This document shows, in pieces, positions 7,910-15,350 of a stretch of DNA of 64,000 bases. Origin of the DNA: Leeia aquatica (lineage in GTDB: Bacteria > Pseudomonadota > Gammaproteobacteria > Burkholderiales > Leeiaceae); the NCBI RefSeq assembly GCF_012641365.1, contig NZ_JABAIM010000001.1, forward strand, positions 434,001 to 498,000, given 5' to 3'. A model generated the notes under the pieces. The model worked only from the letters and a program-made list of their open reading frames with translations. It did not search any database and was not told the DNA's origin. The position numbers were made by a program, and so were the translations under genes. Position 1 is the first letter of the stretch. Each line of letters begins with the position of its first letter.

Positions 7910-8242
7910 TCAGCGCGCACGGGTTCGGTACAAGGAAATGATCAGCTCGGCCTCGCCACGCGAGATGCCGCAGTGCAAAGCCAGCTCGTCCGGCGCATAG
8001 CCTTCGTGCGCCAGCTGGATGGCCAGCGCATAGGGAGATTGCTGGCTGACAGGCGTCGGCTCAGGTAAGGGCGTCTCGCTCTCCAGCGTGACCAGCCGCT
8101 GCCGATGGCGCTCCAGCTCATGCTCCAGCGCTTCCAGCCGCAACAGCATGCGCTGGCTACGCCGCCACAGCCAGACAGCTGTCCATGCCGACAATAACGC
8201 CAGCAGTGCAAGGCCGCCTGCAAGCCCTGTCAACCCGTCCAT
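7910..8242 (-). CDS. DUF2802 membrane-anchored protein
   Basis: A 110-residue protein with one N-terminal transmembrane helix (about residues 6-27), then a coiled-coil-like Arg/Leu/Glu-rich stretch (about 29-55), a Pro-rich linker and a C-terminal helix-turn-helix-like segment (YALAIQLAHEGYAPDELALHCGISRGEAELI). This is the layout of the DUF2802 family, found next to flagellar and chemotaxis genes in beta- and gammaproteobacteria. No biochemical role is established. It is first in a three-gene minus-strand unit with the FliK-like and FlhB-like genes, 20 nt upstream of the former. Confidence 0.75.
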   Translation of the reverse strand: MDGLTGLAGGLALLALLSAWTAVWLWRRSQRMLLRLEALEHELERHRQRLVTLESETPLPEPTPVSQQSPYALAIQLAHEGYAPDELALHCGISRGEAELIISLYRTRAR

Positions 8243-8342
8243 TACGCTCCGCCTCAGCCCACTGATACCATACCCTGATGGTAGGCAGAATGCGGGGGAC
8301 AGTCAAACCTGCCGTGGGCCTGACTGACCAAAGGACACGTCC

Positions 8343-8636
8343 TCAGCCATCAACGGCCAGATCAAACACCAGCACTTGCTGCAGGGCAGGCTTGACCTGC
8401 TCCACAAAGGCCAGATGGGCCGGGTGAATCAGGTAAGCCGCCAGATCCTCCGCTTGATCAAACTGCAACAGAAAAGCATGGGTATAACCCTGCTCCAGTT
8501 GCTCGGTGCTGATACTGGTACCCGCCTCAAAACGGCGGATCAGTGCAATCTGCTGCGGTAAAGCCGCAAATGCTGCACACAGGGCCGACACCGGCGCATC
8601 ATCTTGAAAAGCAAACAGCACGATATGGCGTATCAT
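8343..8636 (-). CDS. Dabb-family (stress-responsive A/B barrel) protein
   Basis: A 97-residue dimeric alpha/beta-barrel protein: MIRHIVLFAF at the start, a central helix, then THAFLLQFDQAEDLAAYLIHPAHLAFVEQ, which is the family signature, and VLVFDLAVDG at the end. The frame is open well upstream, but the ATG at 8636 has AAGGGATGGG just before it and matches the family N-terminus. It begins 10 nt after the stop of the hydroxyproline dehydratase gene, so it belongs to that operon. Dabb proteins include small enzymes and ligand-binding proteins. The function here is unknown and may relate to hydroxyproline catabolism only by co-transcription. Confidence 0.82.
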   Translation of the reverse strand: MIRHIVLFAFQDDAPVSALCAAFAALPQQIALIRRFEAGTSISTEQLEQGYTHAFLLQFDQAEDLAAYLIHPAHLAFVEQVKPALQQVLVFDLAVDG

Positions 8637-8646
8637 CCCATCCCTT

Positions 8647-9657
8647 TCAGCGCAGCAGGAAGCCGCGGCCAATGTCATCCCCTTCTTCCAGCCAGAAGGT
8701 CGCCTCTCCACTGTAGTATGCCCGACCGCTGACACGAACGGTGACCGCCGTACGATCACCACAGCGGGTCTCGCCACGGACCTCCGCATCAAAGCAGGCC
8801 CCGGTAATACTCTGAAAGCGAGCAGACTGGTTCAAGCCCACCTTGCCTTGCTGATACCAGGCCGCCATCCGGGCCGTCACCCCCGAGCCGGTCGGGCTGC
8901 GGTCCACCTCGGCATCCGCAAACACGCAGACGTTGCGGCTGGCACGCTCAGGATCCGGAGCCTGGCTATCGGTCAGGATGCTGCCATACAGGAAGCCAAG
9001 GTCAGGGTGTTCCGGATGCTGCGGCGGGCAGATGGCCTTCACCCTGTTAGACAAGGCTGTGGCCGCATCCACGATATCCCGCACCCGTGCGGTCTGCAGG
9101 TCCAGCCCAAACTGCCGCGCTTCGGCCAGCGCATAGAACGCGCCACCATAGCTCACATCACAACAGATCATGCCGTAGCCGGGTACCTCCACCTGCAGCT
9201 GAAGTTGAAACAGGAAGGCAGGCACACTGTCGAACGACACCCGCCCGCTCTGCCCGTTCTGCACCTCCACCCAGGCCGTCACCAGTCCGCACGGGCACTC
9301 AATATTGACCTGGGTCAGTGGCTCGGTGACCGGCACCAGCCCGTAATCCACCGCATAACGACCCAAGGCGATGACAGCATGGCCGCACATGGTGCTATAG
9401 CCTTCATTATGCAGGAACAGCACGGCCAGATCCGCCCCCGGCAGCGAGGGCTCAACCAGCAGGGCACCGTACATGTCGTAGTGACCACGCGGTTCAAACA
9501 TCAGCAAGCGGCGCAGATGATCCTGCTCCGCCTGTACCTGGCGCCGTTTGTCGAGAATGCTGCCCCCTTTCGGCAGCGGGAAACCGGAACGGATGATGCG
9601 AACCGGCTCGCCACCGGTGTGCATGTCCAGCACCGAGATACGCGGGAAATCACTCAT
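8647..9657 (-). CDS. trans-3-hydroxy-L-proline dehydratase (proline racemase family)
   Basis: Proline-racemase-fold enzyme predicted to dehydrate trans-3-hydroxy-L-proline to delta-1-pyrroline-2-carboxylate. The diagnostic residues are visible. The first catalytic position is Cys (C91, in MCGHAVIALGRYAVD), but the second, Cys in racemases and 4-hydroxyproline epimerases, is Thr (T256, in DRSPTGSG). The Cys/Thr pair is the established mark of the dehydratase group, including human L3HYPDH. I prefer the ATG at 9657 (MSDFPRISVLDMHTGGEP), which matches family N-termini; an in-frame ATG at 9693 would add 12 residues. Length from 9657 is 336 residues. The divergent neighbour encodes the enzyme expected to reduce the product to proline. 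No hydroxyproline transporter is adjacent. Confidence 0.88.
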   Translation of the reverse strand: MSDFPRISVLDMHTGGEPVRIIRSGFPLPKGGSILDKRRQVQAEQDHLRRLLMFEPRGHYDMYGALLVEPSLPGADLAVLFLHNEGYSTMCGHAVIALGRYAVDYGLVPVTEPLTQVNIECPCGLVTAWVEVQNGQSGRVSFDSVPAFLFQLQLQVEVPGYGMICCDVSYGGAFYALAEARQFGLDLQTARVRDIVDAATALSNRVKAICPPQHPEHPDLGFLYGSILTDSQAPDPERASRNVCVFADAEVDRSPTGSGVTARMAAWYQQGKVGLNQSARFQSITGACFDAEVRGETRCGDRTAVTVRVSGRAYYSGEATFWLEEGDDIGRGFLLR

Positions 9658-9713
9658 GTCAGGCCCGTTTCCATGCGCAAGCAAAGCACGCATGTCATCA
9701 TGTCAGGCACATG

Positions 9714-9751
9714 TTGTGCAAGTTTAATAAAATTGTATACAATATACCCAA
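9714..9751. promoter_or_regulatory. Divergent promoters sharing a GntR-type palindromic operator
   Basis: ATTGTATACAAT at 9732-9743 is a perfect 12-bp palindrome of the kind bound by FadR/VanR-type (FCD) GntR regulators. On the plus strand, TTGTGC (9714-9719), a 16-nt spacer and TATACA (9736-9741) give a promoter for the reductase gene, with the -10 inside the palindrome. On the minus strand, TTGGGT (9746-9751), a 17-nt spacer and ATTAAA (9723-9728) give a promoter for the dehydratase, with the palindrome filling the spacer. One bound regulator could block both. No GntR gene lies in the window, so the regulator is inferred. Confidence 0.6.
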
Positions 9752-9785
9752 TTGCTGCACCCGATCCGGAAAGCCTCTCCCCCAT

Positions 9786-10739
9786 ATGCTGCATCTGACC
9801 GCTGCCCAAGTCCGCCAGTCCTTGCCCATGCCTGCCCTGATTGAGGCGCTGGCCACGCGCTTTCGTGAAGGCTGTCAGGCGCCGTTACGTCACCATCATC
9901 ACGTTTCGCTGCCGGATGGGCGCGAGAATGTGCTCCTGCTGATGCCCGCCTGGACCGAGCACTTCCTGGGGGTCAAGCAGGTGATGGTCAGCCCCGATAA
10001 TGGCACGCGCGGTCTGCCCGCCATCCACGGACAATACCAGCTGAGCGATACCCTGACCGGCCAGCCCCTGGCGATGATGGATGGTGTGGAACTCACCGCC
10101 TTGCGGACGGTGGCCACCTCAGCCCTGGCGGCCCGCTATCTGGCGCGCCAGAATGCGGCCACCTTGCTGCTGGTCGGAACCGGCCGGCTGGCCCATGAGC
10201 TGGCCGCCGCCCATCGCAGCGTGCGCCCCATCCAGCGGGTGCTGGTGTGGGGGCGTGACACGCACAAGGCCAGCGAGCTGGCACGCGAACTGGCTGAGCA
10301 GGGTTTCACTGCCCACGCTGTCAGTGACTTGCCACGTGCCTGCGCCGAGGCGGACATCATCAGCTGTGCCACCTTGAGCCGCGAGCCTCTGCTGCGCGGC
10401 GAATGGCTGCAACCAGGCTGCCATCTGGACCTGATGGGGGCGTACACGCCGGACCGGCGCGAGGCCGATACCGCCTGCGTGCTGCGCAGCCAGCTGTTTG
10501 TTGATAGCCGTATCGGCGCATTGCATGAAGCCGGGGATTTGGCGATCCCGCTGGCGGAAGGGGTGATCCAGCCTGAACAGGTTCAGGCTGATCTGGCGGA
10601 GCTATGCCGGGGCGTGCACCCGGGCCGCAAGGGTGACCATGAGATCACCTTGTTCAAATCTGTGGGTCTGGCGCTGGAGGATCTGGCTGCTGCCATTCTG
10701 GTTTACCAGCAAGCCAGCGGCCATGCGCCCGCCCCCTAG
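9786..10739 (+). CDS. Ornithine cyclodeaminase/mu-crystallin family reductase, likely pyrroline-2-carboxylate reductase
   Basis: A 317-residue member of the ornithine cyclodeaminase/mu-crystallin family. The fold markers are FLGVKQVMV (substrate Lys), ALMDGVEL-like AMMDGVELTALRTVATSALAARYL, and the Rossmann motif LLLVGTGRLAHE at about residue 120, followed by VLVWGRD. In this family several members reduce the cyclic ketimine delta-1-pyrroline-2-carboxylate to L-proline. That reaction would complete the pathway begun by the divergent dehydratase. The frame opens further upstream, but the inferred transcription start near 9748 excludes that region; the ATG at 9786 begins MLHLTAAQVRQSLPM. True ornithine cyclodeaminase or alanine dehydrogenase activity cannot be excluded from sequence alone. 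A terminator lies about 125 nt past the stop. Confidence 0.85.
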   Translation: MLHLTAAQVRQSLPMPALIEALATRFREGCQAPLRHHHHVSLPDGRENVLLLMPAWTEHFLGVKQVMVSPDNGTRGLPAIHGQYQLSDTLTGQPLAMMDGVELTALRTVATSALAARYLARQNAATLLLVGTGRLAHELAAAHRSVRPIQRVLVWGRDTHKASELARELAEQGFTAHAVSDLPRACAEADIISCATLSREPLLRGEWLQPGCHLDLMGAYTPDRREADTACVLRSQLFVDSRIGALHEAGDLAIPLAEGVIQPEQVQADLAELCRGVHPGRKGDHEITLFKSVGLALEDLAAAILVYQQASGHAPAP

Positions 10740-10741
10740 AG

Positions 10742-10834
10742 CCTGTTGATCGTCTTGCCTACGCGTAAGGCAAGCGATGAACCAGCTCTGTACCGTGTTG
10801 CGGTTTTTGTCCCGTAGTGATCATACGGAACAGG
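10742..10834 (+). other. Structured intergenic segment, possible 3' UTR structure or small RNA
   Basis: Between the reductase stop and the terminator at 10865 there are nested inverted repeats. CCTGTT (10742-10747) can pair with AACAGG (10829-10834) and enclose two hairpins: CTTGCCT (10754-10760) with AGGCAAG (10768-10774), and CCGTA (10812-10816) with TACGG (10824-10828). No credible ORF covers it. I do not recognise a known RNA family. It may be the long 3' untranslated tail of the reductase mRNA or a separately made RNA. Confidence 0.35.
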
Positions 10835-10864
10835 AGCGGTGACTATCTCTCTTCACAGGGACTT

Positions 10865-10891
10865 GACCCGGCTTGTGCCGGGTCTTTTTTT
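10865..10891 (+). terminator. Rho-independent terminator
   Basis: GACCCGGC / GCCGGGTC forms a perfect 8-bp stem with a TTGT loop, followed by seven T residues on the plus strand only. It ends transcription coming from the reductase gene and the structured segment, and insulates the convergent liu operon. Confidence 0.9.
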
Positions 10892-10902
10892 GTCTGTAGC
10901 AC

Positions 10903-12903
10903 CTAACTGGCTTCGCTCACCACGCACAGCAGTGCATCCGCTTCCACAATCGCGTCCGCCGCAAAACGAACCGACTCCAGCACACCATCACGTGGTGACA
11001 CAATGGTGTGCTCCATCTTCATGGCTTCCAGAATCAGCAGCGGCTGCCCTTTCTTTACCGGGCTGCCCACCTCGGCCAGAATGCGTACCACCCTGCCCGG
11101 CATCGGCGCAGTCAGGCCCCCTTCCGCGCCTTCGTCGCTCAGCTTGACGGCATACGGATCAAACAGCTGGAACTCATACCCGCCCTCCGGCAGCATCACA
11201 CACAGCTGCGAGCCATGCCGCAGTACCGTCAACCGGCATTGCCGATCCGCCAACTGCAGCGACAGCTGGTCACCCTCCAGCGCCATGCGCAACACCGCCA
11301 TCACCTCACCGGATGGGGTGTGGCAGCTCCAGCCCTTCGCCACCGGCTTCAGGCGGGTCTGCACGATCGCTTCACCCTGCTGCCAGTGCTGGGTGCGGGC
11401 ATGATCGGCATTCAGGCGCCAGCCATCGTGCTGATGCCACGGAGCATTGGGATCGTTGCTGGCACTGGCCTGCTGCTGGCGCGCCTGCTGTTCGTCCAGC
11501 CAGACGCGGGCGCTTGTAGCCAGCCAGGCCAGCGCCGGTACCGGTCGGGCGGCATGCAGCTGGGCCGCGTGGGTCGCTACAAAACCGGTGTCGGTATCGC
11601 CTGCCAGAAAAGCAGGGTGTGCAGCAACCTTGCCGAGGAAGTCCAGATTGGTCACCACCCCCAGGACACCCGTTTGCGCCAGCATCTGTTGCAGGCGCAG
11701 GATGGCTTGCGGTCTATCCTCACCCCAGACAATCAGCTTGGCCAGCATCGGGTCGTAAAACACCCCGACAGCGTCCCCCACCCGTACCCCGCTATCCACC
11801 CGCATATGCGCCTGTTCAACAGGAAAGGCCAGTGCTGTGAGGGTGCCAGTTTCCGGCAGGAACGCATTGTCCGGGTTTTCGGCGTACAGGCGCACTTCGA
11901 TGGCATGCCCTCGCTGCTGCAGTTCCGCTTGCTGCCGTGGCAAGGGTAAGCCCGCTGCCACCTGCAACTGCCATGCCACCAGATCCTGCCCGCTGACCAG
12001 CTCGGTAACCGGGTGCTCCACCTGCAGGCGGGTGTTCATTTCCATGAAGTAGAACTGGCGGTCGTCACCAACGATGAACTCAATGGTCCCCGCGCCGACG
12101 TAGCCAATGGCCAGTGCCGCCTTCACCGCCGCCTCGCCCATCGCCGCCCGCAATTCTGGCGTCATCAAGGGCGAGGGGGACTCTTCGAGGATTTTCTGGT
12201 GGCGGCGCTGGATGGAGCACTCACGCTCGAACAGGTGTACCGCCTGCCCATGCTGATCGCCAAAGACCTGGAATTCGATATGGTGCGGGTTGAGCACATA
12301 ACGCTCCAGCAGCACCGTGGCGTCGCCAAAGGCATTCTGCGCTTCACGCTGTGCGGCTTCCAGCTGGGACAGGAACTCGTCGGCGCTATCCACCCGACGC
12401 ATGCCCTTGCCACCGCCACCGGCGATCGCCTTGATCAGCAGCGGAAACCCGATGCGCTGTGCCTCTGCCAGCAAGAAGGCACTGTCCTGCTGCTCGCCAT
12501 GGTAGCCGGGGACAATCGGCACACCTGCGCGCTCCATGATGGCCTTGGCTGCACTTTTGGAGCCCATGGCATCAATCGCCTCGGGGGTCGGGCCGATGAA
12601 CACCACTCCGGCCTCGCGGCAAGCACGGGCAAAGTCTGCATTTTCAGACAGAAAACCATAGCCTGGATGAATGGCCTCCGCCCCGGTTTGCCGTGCCACC
12701 TGCAAGATGACATCGCCCCGCAGATAGGAATCCACCGGGCGTGGCCCGCCAATACGCCAGGCTTCATCCGCCAGCTCGACATGCAGGCTGTTGGCATCCG
12801 CGTCCGAGTACACGGCAACGGTCTGCACCCCCAGCAGGCGGCAGGTCTGGATCACCCGACAGGCGATCTCACCGCGGTTGGCAATCAGGATCTTGCGGAA
12901 CAT
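10903..12903 (-). CDS. liuD: Methylcrotonyl-CoA carboxylase biotin-containing alpha subunit
   Basis: Biotin carboxylase plus biotin carrier subunit (666 residues) that, with LiuB, carboxylates 3-methylcrotonyl-CoA in leucine degradation. The N-terminal half is an ATP-grasp biotin carboxylase (FRKILIANRGEIACRVI start, GGGGKGMR loop near residue 165, EMNTRLQVEHPVTE). The last 80 residues form a biotinyl domain with the biotinylated Lys in LEAMKMEHT. The ATG is preceded by GAGGAAAAGC. It is the last gene of the liuRABCD string, 27 nt after liuC. The substrate is assigned from operon context, because acetyl- and propionyl-CoA carboxylase alpha subunits look alike. Confidence 0.92.
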   Translation of the reverse strand: MFRKILIANRGEIACRVIQTCRLLGVQTVAVYSDADANSLHVELADEAWRIGGPRPVDSYLRGDVILQVARQTGAEAIHPGYGFLSENADFARACREAGVVFIGPTPEAIDAMGSKSAAKAIMERAGVPIVPGYHGEQQDSAFLLAEAQRIGFPLLIKAIAGGGGKGMRRVDSADEFLSQLEAAQREAQNAFGDATVLLERYVLNPHHIEFQVFGDQHGQAVHLFERECSIQRRHQKILEESPSPLMTPELRAAMGEAAVKAALAIGYVGAGTIEFIVGDDRQFYFMEMNTRLQVEHPVTELVSGQDLVAWQLQVAAGLPLPRQQAELQQRGHAIEVRLYAENPDNAFLPETGTLTALAFPVEQAHMRVDSGVRVGDAVGVFYDPMLAKLIVWGEDRPQAILRLQQMLAQTGVLGVVTNLDFLGKVAAHPAFLAGDTDTGFVATHAAQLHAARPVPALAWLATSARVWLDEQQARQQQASASNDPNAPWHQHDGWRLNADHARTQHWQQGEAIVQTRLKPVAKGWSCHTPSGEVMAVLRMALEGDQLSLQLADRQCRLTVLRHGSQLCVMLPEGGYEFQLFDPYAVKLSDEGAEGGLTAPMPGRVVRILAEVGSPVKKGQPLLILEAMKMEHTIVSPRDGVLESVRFAADAIVEADALLCVVSEAS

Positions 12904-12930
12904 GCTTTTCCTCGTCTAGCGATCAGGTAA

Positions 12931-13722
12931 TTACAGCTGCCACTTCGGCTTGCGCTTCTCCAGAAAGGCCGACAGGCCTTCCTGCCCTTCTTCCGACACC
13001 CGCAACTGGGCAATCAGCTTGGTGGTATCGTCGATCAGGCGGCCATCGCGCAGCTGGCAGTCCGCACTGATACGTGCAATCAGCCGCTTGCTGGCACTCA
13101 CCGCCTGCGGCCCGGCGCGCAGGATGGCGCGGATCCAGCCGTCCACTACATCGTCCAGCATGTCTTCAGCGGCCACCTCATGCACCAGCCCGATGCTTTC
13201 CGCCACACTGGCCGACATCGCTTCCGCAGTGAGGAACCAGCGCCGCGCCTGCCGCTCGCCAATGGCCGTAATCACATACGGCGAGATCACCGCCGGCACC
13301 AGCCCCAGTTTGACTTCTGTGAGCGCAAAGCTGGCACCCTCCAGCGCCACCGCCATGTCGCAACACGCCACCAGGCCGACACCACCGCCATAAGCCGCAC
13401 CGTTGACGCGGGCAATGGTCGGCTTGGGGAGATTCGCCAGGGTATCCATCAGGGTCGCCAGCCGGGTTGCATCGGCATGGTTGGTGGCTTCATCGTAGCC
13501 CACCATCGCCCGCATCCAGTTGAGGTCCGCTCCAGCGCAGAAGCTGTGGCCTTCACCGGTCAACACCACTACCCGCACCGCAGGGTCTTGTCCCAGCTGC
13601 TCCAGGGTCTGGGTCAGCTGTTCAATCAGCACATCATTGAAGGCATTGTGGACTTCAGGCCGGTTCAGGATGATGCGGGCTACCCCTTGGGCGCTCTGTT
13701 CCAGCTTCAACAATCGGGTCAT
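12931..13722 (-). CDS. liuC: Enoyl-CoA hydratase family, likely methylglutaconyl-CoA hydratase
   Basis: Crotonase-fold protein of 263 residues expected to hydrate 3-methylglutaconyl-CoA to HMG-CoA in leucine degradation. It shows the first oxyanion-hole segment GHSFCAGADLNWM and the second, NGAAYGGGVGLVACCDMAVA. The loop FALTEVKLGLVPAVIS carries the acidic residues typical of hydratases. The reading frame extends far upstream into liuB, but AGGAGA sits 6 nt before the ATG at 13722, so that start is used. It lies 20 nt after liuB. Specific activity is inferred from operon position. Confidence 0.9.
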   Translation of the reverse strand: MTRLLKLEQSAQGVARIILNRPEVHNAFNDVLIEQLTQTLEQLGQDPAVRVVVLTGEGHSFCAGADLNWMRAMVGYDEATNHADATRLATLMDTLANLPKPTIARVNGAAYGGGVGLVACCDMAVALEGASFALTEVKLGLVPAVISPYVITAIGERQARRWFLTAEAMSASVAESIGLVHEVAAEDMLDDVVDGWIRAILRAGPQAVSASKRLIARISADCQLRDGRLIDDTTKLIAQLRVSEEGQEGLSAFLEKRKPKWQL

Positions 13723-13742
13723 CGTGGTTCTCCTGCTGCGGT

Positions 13743-15350
13743 TTACATCCGGAACACCCCGTAACGGGTGTCCTCCGCGGGCGCGTTTTGCACTGCTGAC
13801 AGGGCCAGACCCAGCACCATGCGGGTATCTTGCGGGTCGATGATGCCATCGTCCCACAGGCGCGCACTGGCATACCAGGCATGGCCCTTGGCCTCGTACT
13901 CATCACGGATCGGCTGCTTGAAGGCTTCTTCTTCCTCGGCGGACCAGTTCGTTCCGCGCGATTCATGCTGCTCGCGCTTGACGGTCGCCAACACCCCGGC
14001 GGCCTGCTCTCCCCCCATCACCGAGATACGTGCATTCGGCCACATCCACAGGAAACGCGGGTTGTAGGCGCGGCCGCACATGCCGTAGTTACCGGCACCA
14101 AACGAACCGCCAACAATCACCGTCAGTTTCGGCACTTTGGCGCAGGCCACTGCAGTCACCAGCTTGGCGCCATCCTTGGCAATGCCACCCTGCTCGTACT
14201 TCTTGCCCACCATGAAACCGGTAATGTTTTGCAGGAACAGCAAGGGAATACCCCGCTGGTTGCACAGCTCGACAAAGTGCGCACCCTTGAGCGCACTCTC
14301 TGAGAACAGGATGCCATTATTGGCGATGATGCCGACCGGATAACCGTGGATATGGGCAAAACCACACACCAGCGTGGTGCCATACAGTGGCTTGAATTCC
14401 TGCAGCTCGGAGTCATCCACCACCCGGGCGATGACCTCGCGGATGTCGAAGGGCTGGCGGGTATCGGTCGGGATGACGCCGTACAATTCTTCCTGGCTGT
14501 AACGCGGTGCACGCACCGGCTGGATGGCCGCACGGACCTGCTTTTGCCGATTGAGGAAACGCACCACATCGCGGGCAATCGCCAGCGCATGGTGGTCGTC
14601 CTGTGCCAAGTGATCGGTCACGCCCGAGATCTTGCTGTGCACCTCGCCGCCGCCCAGCTCTTCTGCAGTCACAATCTCGCCGGTAGCGGCACGCACCAGC
14701 GGCGGGCCACCAAGGAAAATGGTGCCTTGGTTACGGACGATGATGGATTCATCACACATGGCCGGCACATAAGCGCCACCGGCAGTACATGAGCCCATCA
14801 CCACGGCGATCTGCGGAATACCCGCTGCCGACATATTGGCCTGATTGTAGAAAATGCGGCCGAAGTGCTCCTTGTCCGGAAACACTTCGTCCTGCAAGGG
14901 CAGGAATGCACCGCCCGAGTCGACCAGATACAGGCACGGCAGATGGTTCTGCGCAGCGATCTCCTGCGCGCGCAGGTGCTTCTTGACCGTCATCGGGTAG
15001 TAGGTGCCACCTTTGACGGTGGCATCATTGGCCACGATCATGCATTCCAGCCCCGCTACCCGGCCAATGCCGGTGACCACTCCGGCTCCCGGTGCCTGGC
15101 CATCGTACATGTCCCACGCAGCCAACTGGGATAGCTCCAGAAACGGTGAGCCCGGATCCAGCAACACCTCAATGCGCTCGCGTGGCAGCAGCTTGCCACG
15201 GGCCTTGTGCCGCCTGGCGGCCTCTTCCCCGCCACCCTGTGCCACCGCGGCCACATCCTGCTGCAGGCGCTCTACCAAGGCCTGCATCTGGGCCGCATTG
15301 CGCTGGAAAGCTTCGCTACGGGTATCAAGCTTGCTCTGGATGACCGGCAT
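13743..15350 (-). CDS. liuB: Methylcrotonyl-CoA carboxylase carboxyltransferase beta subunit
   Basis: A 535-residue carboxyltransferase that moves carboxyl from biotin on LiuD to 3-methylcrotonyl-CoA. The two crotonase-like halves are visible: an N-terminal one with [17 protein letters not shown] and [16 protein letters not shown], and a C-terminal one with [19 protein letters not shown] and [20 protein letters not shown]. The combination SGGAFLP plus [11 protein letters not shown] is characteristic of the methylcrotonyl/geranyl type, as opposed to the propionyl type. An AAGGA precedes the ATG. The 108-bp gap to liuA contains no obvious gene. Confidence 0.93.

Follow-up and report, generated by a model that had tools for sequence, protein, structure and literature searches.

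The window analysed here is a 64,000-nucleotide stretch of the Leeia aquatica genome (contig NZ_JABAIM010000001.1, positions 434,001 to 498,000 of the forward strand), and this report concerns two divergent genes within it whose most likely function, judged from their sequences, is the two-step conversion of trans-3-hydroxy-L-proline to proline. The minus-strand gene (8647-9657) encodes a predicted 336-residue trans-3-hydroxy-L-proline dehydratase (t3HypD) of the proline-racemase superfamily. The plus-strand gene (9786-10739) encodes a 317-residue protein of the ornithine cyclodeaminase (OCD) family, PRK06141 subfamily, a predicted Δ1-pyrroline-2-carboxylate reductase. The starts of the two genes are separated by 128 bp, and the region between them carries a perfect 12-bp palindrome, ATTGTATACAAT (9732-9743, without strand), which lies 42 bp from the reductase start and 74 bp from the dehydratase start and is predicted to be the operator of a HypR-like repressor of the GntR family. 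On the same strand as the dehydratase gene, and 10 nt after its stop, begins a 97-residue Dabb (stress-responsive A/B barrel) gene (8343-8636, minus strand; Pfam PF07876, E 2.5e-25). These four elements had been described in an initial annotation of the window, and all of them are confirmed at the coordinates it gave.

In the proposed mechanism, Cys91 would act as the general base, allowing the dehydratase to remove water from trans-3-hydroxy-L-proline, and the dehydration product would tautomerise to Δ1-pyrroline-2-carboxylate, which the OCD-family enzyme would then reduce with NAD(P)H to L-proline. Homology supports this two-enzyme route, which had been put forward in the initial annotation.

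The dehydratase and the reductase

The dehydratase matches Pfam PF05544 (E 1.7e-104) and has cysteine at position 91 and threonine at position 256, as had been read from the sequence before. The Cys/Thr pair occupies the same columns in all 80 relatives compared, whose frames were pre-selected by motifs allowing only Cys or Ser at position 91 and any residue at position 256, with no locus lost. A passage of PMC4113996 gives the Cys/Thr pair as the active-site rule for t3HypD and also names a t3HypD with Ser90/Thr256. In the closest solved sequence, that of a t3HypD-type protein, the catalytic motifs are identical in kind, whereas here the gene is bacterial and appears to sit inside a regulon. 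The identification as a dehydratase is thus supported by homology. On each of the two NCBIfam models of t3HypD the protein scores below the cut-off (339.6 of 540 and 194.7 of 550 bits); such scores test membership in the lineages of those models rather than activity, and because both cut-offs are missed the window dehydratase belongs to a lineage outside the coverage of either model. The t3HypD of a second genome of the same genus (L127) reaches 636.8 bits on the first of these models (cut-off 540).

The sub-threshold scores would also fit a promiscuous or altered member of the superfamily, for example one with 4-hydroxyproline epimerase side activity, in place of a dedicated dehydratase, and superfamily members with both activities are described in part of PMC4113996. 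We regard this as very unlikely, since the second catalytic cysteine is replaced by threonine and the genome already has a Cys/Cys 4-hydroxyproline epimerase (4HypE). A dedicated dehydratase is the preferred identity. In the dehydratase tree (41 of 85 rows kept, mainly by thinning Mesorhizobium rows, after prior removal of one mis-framed row), the window protein forms a group with Chromobacteriaceae proteins and one Holophagaceae (Acidobacteriota) protein with support of 99/93 and long end branches; this placement with Chromobacteriaceae makes no strong case for a recent foreign (horizontal) origin.

Two observations concern the surroundings of relatives of the dehydratase gene. The nearest relative (68%, from a Holophagaceae assembly; L004:8839-11008) lies directly 3' of what is, by eye, an alanine-dehydrogenase-like gene, whose product might act as an imine reductase there. 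At three Mesorhizobium loci (L012, L028 and L059), a frame of 126-127 residues overlaps the t3HypD stop by a few bases and has, by eye, a signal-peptide-like start.

The assignment of the divergent gene to the OCD family holds (Pfam PF02423, E 1.5e-68). Its product passes the NCBIfam model NF004793 (PRK06141; 430.5 bits against a cut-off of 322) and fails the LhpI-type model (161.3 of 400 bits). Among solved relatives the best match is 7rbp, an ornithine cyclodeaminase/mu-crystallin entry (E 3.6e-58), and the second best is 6t3e, a Δ1-pyrroline-2-carboxylate reductase (E 2.2e-57). A t3HypD homologue at E ≤ 1e-70 is present in fourteen other genomes of the order (four of them with only 1.5 kb of flank, and two probably repeating database assemblies), and an OCD gene lies close to t3HypD in nine. 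Because an LhpI-type query outscores the window reductase in all nine (in G254 just a fragment of the OCD is present, at the edge of the locus), the window reductase is assigned by similarity to a different OCD subfamily from the LhpI type of its relatives in the order.

The identity of the substrate is less constrained than that of the family. The OCD enzyme could mainly reduce Δ1-piperideine-2-carboxylate (forming pipecolate) or deaminate ornithine, sharing only an inducer with the dehydratase while another reductase serves trans-3-hydroxyproline. NF004793 is itself named as a bifunctional pyrroline/piperideine-2-carboxylate reductase, and a relative of the same PRK06141 subfamily (L131:7767-8714) follows DAAO-like and aldehyde-dehydrogenase-like genes in a 16-kb stretch with no t3HypD, an arrangement that possibly represents a D-lysine/pipecolate-type use of the subfamily. 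The OCD of HypR regulons has also been read as ornithine degradation (Leyn et al. 2016, part of PMC5343134). Against this, the OCD gene is divergent from t3HypD on one box, an OCD of the LhpI type accompanies t3HypD in the nine order genomes, and the L. aquatica genome has no match to Ldh_2, the second superfamily known to supply such reductases. A search of this genome with the window reductase at E ≤ 1e-30 returned that reductase alone, but in two other genomes (G028 and G009) it failed to pick up the LhpI-type OCD genes; the notion that the window gene is the sole reductase was dropped, and a second, LhpI-type reductase elsewhere in the genome could have been missed likewise. Taken together, a main role outside trans-3-hydroxyproline catabolism is unlikely, and reduction of Δ1-pyrroline-2-carboxylate is the preferred function. 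A CRISPR-like repeat array and Cas-like genes, recognised by eye, adjoin the L131 reductase gene.

A common box and a regulator on another contig

The palindrome ATTGTATACAAT has a single exact copy in the 3.56 Mb genome. Palindromy alone does not make it remarkable: there are 24 perfect 12-bp palindromes in the window, and when the 128-bp intergenic stretch is dinucleotide-shuffled 5000 times, 146 of the shuffles contain one. What gives it weight is that it matches a box found elsewhere: 1 of the 5000 intergenic shuffles produces the exact 10-mer TTGTATACAA, and 29 produce it with at most one mismatch. The palindrome had been described as overlapping both inferred promoters, a claim that is weakly supported. 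A loose scan (8 of 12) recognises a −10-like TACAAT inside the palindrome on the plus strand, weakly, with a poor −35, and no minus-strand promoter pair in the intergenic region; a stricter scan (9 of 12) of 8200-10950 gives two promoter-like sites (0.8 expected), neither of them intergenic. The box may plausibly overlap both promoters.

Neither a regulator nor a transporter gene had been noted in the window, a description that is incomplete for the genome: outside the window there is a hydroxyproline cluster that bears the same box and includes a HypR-like GntR gene. The second racemase-superfamily gene of the genome (G000:C2:250657-251625) encodes the Cys/Cys protein mentioned above, which is 4HypE by NCBIfam NF010578 (554.9 bits against a cut-off of 376). 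Its neighbours are DAAO-, DapA-, KGSA-dehydrogenase- and ABC substrate-binding-protein-like genes together with a GntR regulator gene (L126:12644-13318), which adjoins the KGSA-dehydrogenase-like gene and is located on a different contig from the window. The divergent region between 4HypE and dapA carries ATTGTATACATT and ATTGTATACAAA, one with an exact TTGTATACAA and one with a single mismatch; when a 419-bp stretch there is shuffled 2000 times, an exact TTGTATACAA arises in 4 of the shuffles, and a pair of sites with at most one mismatch likewise in 4. The only NCBIfam match of the GntR protein at E ≤ 1e-20 is phnR_burk, at 108.1 of 271.5 bits and thus far below the cut-off, and its type was assigned from this match and by eye. 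By context and similarity, the protein resembles HypR. The genome contains both a GntR gene in its own hydroxyproline cluster and a putative palindromic operator common to the window and two sites of that cluster.

The regulator of the window module is probably the GntR protein of this 4-hydroxyproline cluster, and we consider it likely that the module forms a separate trans-3-hydroxy-L-proline branch of the hydroxyproline regulon, repressed in trans by that HypR-like protein. The repressor would bind ATTGTATACAAT and repress both divergent genes, and an inducer is presumed. Its own gene would be the GntR gene of the trans-4-hydroxyproline cluster on the other contig, a cluster with the same box in its divergent promoter region.

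Consistent with this, the box and the regulator occur together in relatives. Across 92 sources (80 database loci, 11 genome stretches and the window), a relative of the cluster GntR above 100 bits is found in 15, of which 12 have the exact 10-mer and the remaining three (L065, L069 and L074) have one-mismatch sites; among the 77 sources lacking such a relative, the exact 10-mer is present only in the window and in L127. At L127:7701-7712 the box ATTGTATACAAA is found just 5' of a t3HypD gene whose product is only 42% identical to that of the window, which suggests retention of the box across differing lineages of the enzyme. Both same-genus genomes keep the GntR gene (71% and 67%), with a one-mismatch box upstream in one (L164:7927). 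Eight distinct Chromobacteriaceae-type genomes, so grouped by tree naming or by the same family grouping as Vogesella, were compared; in four (L069=L168, L074=L129, L166 and L169), t3HypD ends a cluster of the order 4HypE-DAAO-SBP-(OCD)-t3HypD, where SBP is the substrate-binding protein, and box-like sites are located in the 4HypE/dapA region, while in a fifth (L073) a cluster is present that contains a diverged epimerase and lacks the box. The t3HypD genes of Kiloniella and Thalassospira also have 4-hydroxyproline genes beside them, and a close 4HypE relative (>250 bits) is found in the flanks of 16 of the 80 database loci. The simplest reading of these arrangements is that the trans-3-hydroxyproline branch of L. 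aquatica, perhaps once a member of the cluster, now lies apart from it within the same HypR-type regulon.

GntR boxes are similar across the family, and a further relative of the regulator (30%) is encoded in the genome at G000:C1:170576. The pair could accordingly serve trans-3-hydroxyproline catabolism under a different GntR protein that reads the box. We think this doubtful, as the very cluster that carries the GntR gene has two copies of the box in its divergent promoter region, and the box accompanies relatives of that GntR protein in other genera.

Several observations weigh against a HypR-type branch of this kind, among them the dehydratase scores, the possible second reductase and the unrecognised minus-strand promoter described above. 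Of the three exact copies of WTTGTATACAAW in the genome (window, cluster and C1:774614), the third is at the start of a reading frame unrelated to the pathway. Allowing one mismatch raises the number of WTTGTATACAAW sites to 11, and because a reversed control gives 8, the looser pattern is not specific and genome-wide specificity is weak. The box-bearing sources come from few clades (Kiloniella, Thalassospira with a related assembly, and Vogesella) and do not represent 12 independent events. The surroundings of the same-genus GntR genes (L164 and L165) yielded no further genes of the cluster, and within the stretches examined the Chromobacteriaceae-type genomes L076, L077 and L167 have neither cluster genes near t3HypD nor a box. 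An OCD gene is close to t3HypD at 3 of the 80 database loci (mostly Mesorhizobium), the other 77 having none nearby.

The Dabb gene and adjoining features

The suggestion in the initial annotation that the Dabb gene may be an unrecognised part of the pathway did not survive comparison with relatives. At E ≤ 1e-3, no Dabb relative is present in the flanks of the 80 t3HypD loci (53 with about the full 10 kb, the shortest stretch being 6980 bases) or in the 14 order genomes, and membership of the pathway is rejected for want of conserved linkage to t3HypD. Among 369 genomes of the class, the window Dabb protein is found at E ≤ 1e-15 only in its own genome. A search giving 100 relatives at E ≤ 0.001 places it in 9 genomes at 10 places, its own included, and the nine other places, in eight genomes, have no t3HypD or OCD gene within the 1.5 kb examined. 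Small frames behind t3HypD are common: a same-strand frame starts within 80 nt of the gene at 48 of the 80 loci, and 13 of these frames are 70-140 residues long and coding-like by base composition, but none of the 13 is Dabb-like by tblastn with the window protein.

The Dabb gene looks like a local bystander outside the conserved pathway, probably co-transcribed with the dehydratase gene and simply carried along on its transcript. Its position on the same strand, 10 nt behind the dehydratase stop, is what would favour a working part in the pathway, which the missing linkage in relatives makes highly improbable; slimmer still is the chance that it is a true dehydratase helper in this lineage, for example one that speeds the enamine-to-imine tautomerisation between the two enzymes. 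A literature search found no paper joining Dabb and hydroxyproline.

On the other side of the locus, an intrinsic-terminator-like hairpin followed by a T run lies 3' of the reductase gene (10865-10884, plus strand), one of two such sites in 8200-10950, where shuffles lead one to expect 1.5. Adjoining the module, at 10903-15350, are biotin-carboxylase-, enoyl-CoA-hydratase- and carboxyltransferase-like genes of the acyl-CoA-carboxylase type, which by eye resemble a leucine-degradation cluster.

Relation to known hydroxyproline systems

A bacterial t3HypD acting with an OCD-family Δ1-pyrroline-2-carboxylate reductase was reportedly described by Watanabe et al. in 2014. The pathway itself is already known, and the module is an ordinary catabolic module. 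Part of PMC4113996 sets out the route through these two enzymes and treats the tautomerisation to Δ1-pyrroline-2-carboxylate as non-enzymatic. The window agrees with this published pathway in its enzyme superfamilies, its Cys/Thr pair and the predicted two-step route to L-proline, and differs from it in having a PRK06141 reductase in place of an LhpI-type one, in the divergent orientation of the genes and in the appended Dabb gene. A literature search found no paper that treats trans-3-hydroxyproline with operon, regulator and dehydratase together, and none of the matches listed for TTGTATACAA is, by title, evidently about hydroxyproline.

The regulons of the GntR protein HypR in Proteobacteria include, according to part of PMC5343134, an OCD-family protein and an alternative epimerase, and the OCD member is there read as ornithine degradation. 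The L. aquatica genome is alike in having a GntR gene within its 4-hydroxyproline cluster, whereas the OCD gene of the window is partnered by t3HypD, which points to pyrroline-2-carboxylate reduction. This suggests that OCD genes in the published HypR regulons may also be pyrroline-2-carboxylate reductases. The HypR of Streptomyces has a different binding motif, and the FadR-subfamily motif TKGT/ACMA is quoted in the same source (part of PMC6608401).

The nearest counterpart is the Vogesella-like cluster, HypR-KGSADH-DapA / 4HypE-DAAO-SBP-(OCD)-t3HypD, in which the regulator gene falls within the stretch examined in L069=L168 and L074=L129 only. That cluster, like the window together with the L. 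aquatica cluster, encodes related enzymes and has box-like palindromes where its promoters diverge; the two differ in that t3HypD stands at the end of the Vogesella-like cluster, whereas in L. aquatica it is located on another contig with its own copy of the box. The value of the locus is modest and comparative: a t3HypD set apart from the 4-hydroxyproline cluster yet bearing the cluster's operator, and served by a reductase predicted from a different OCD subfamily.

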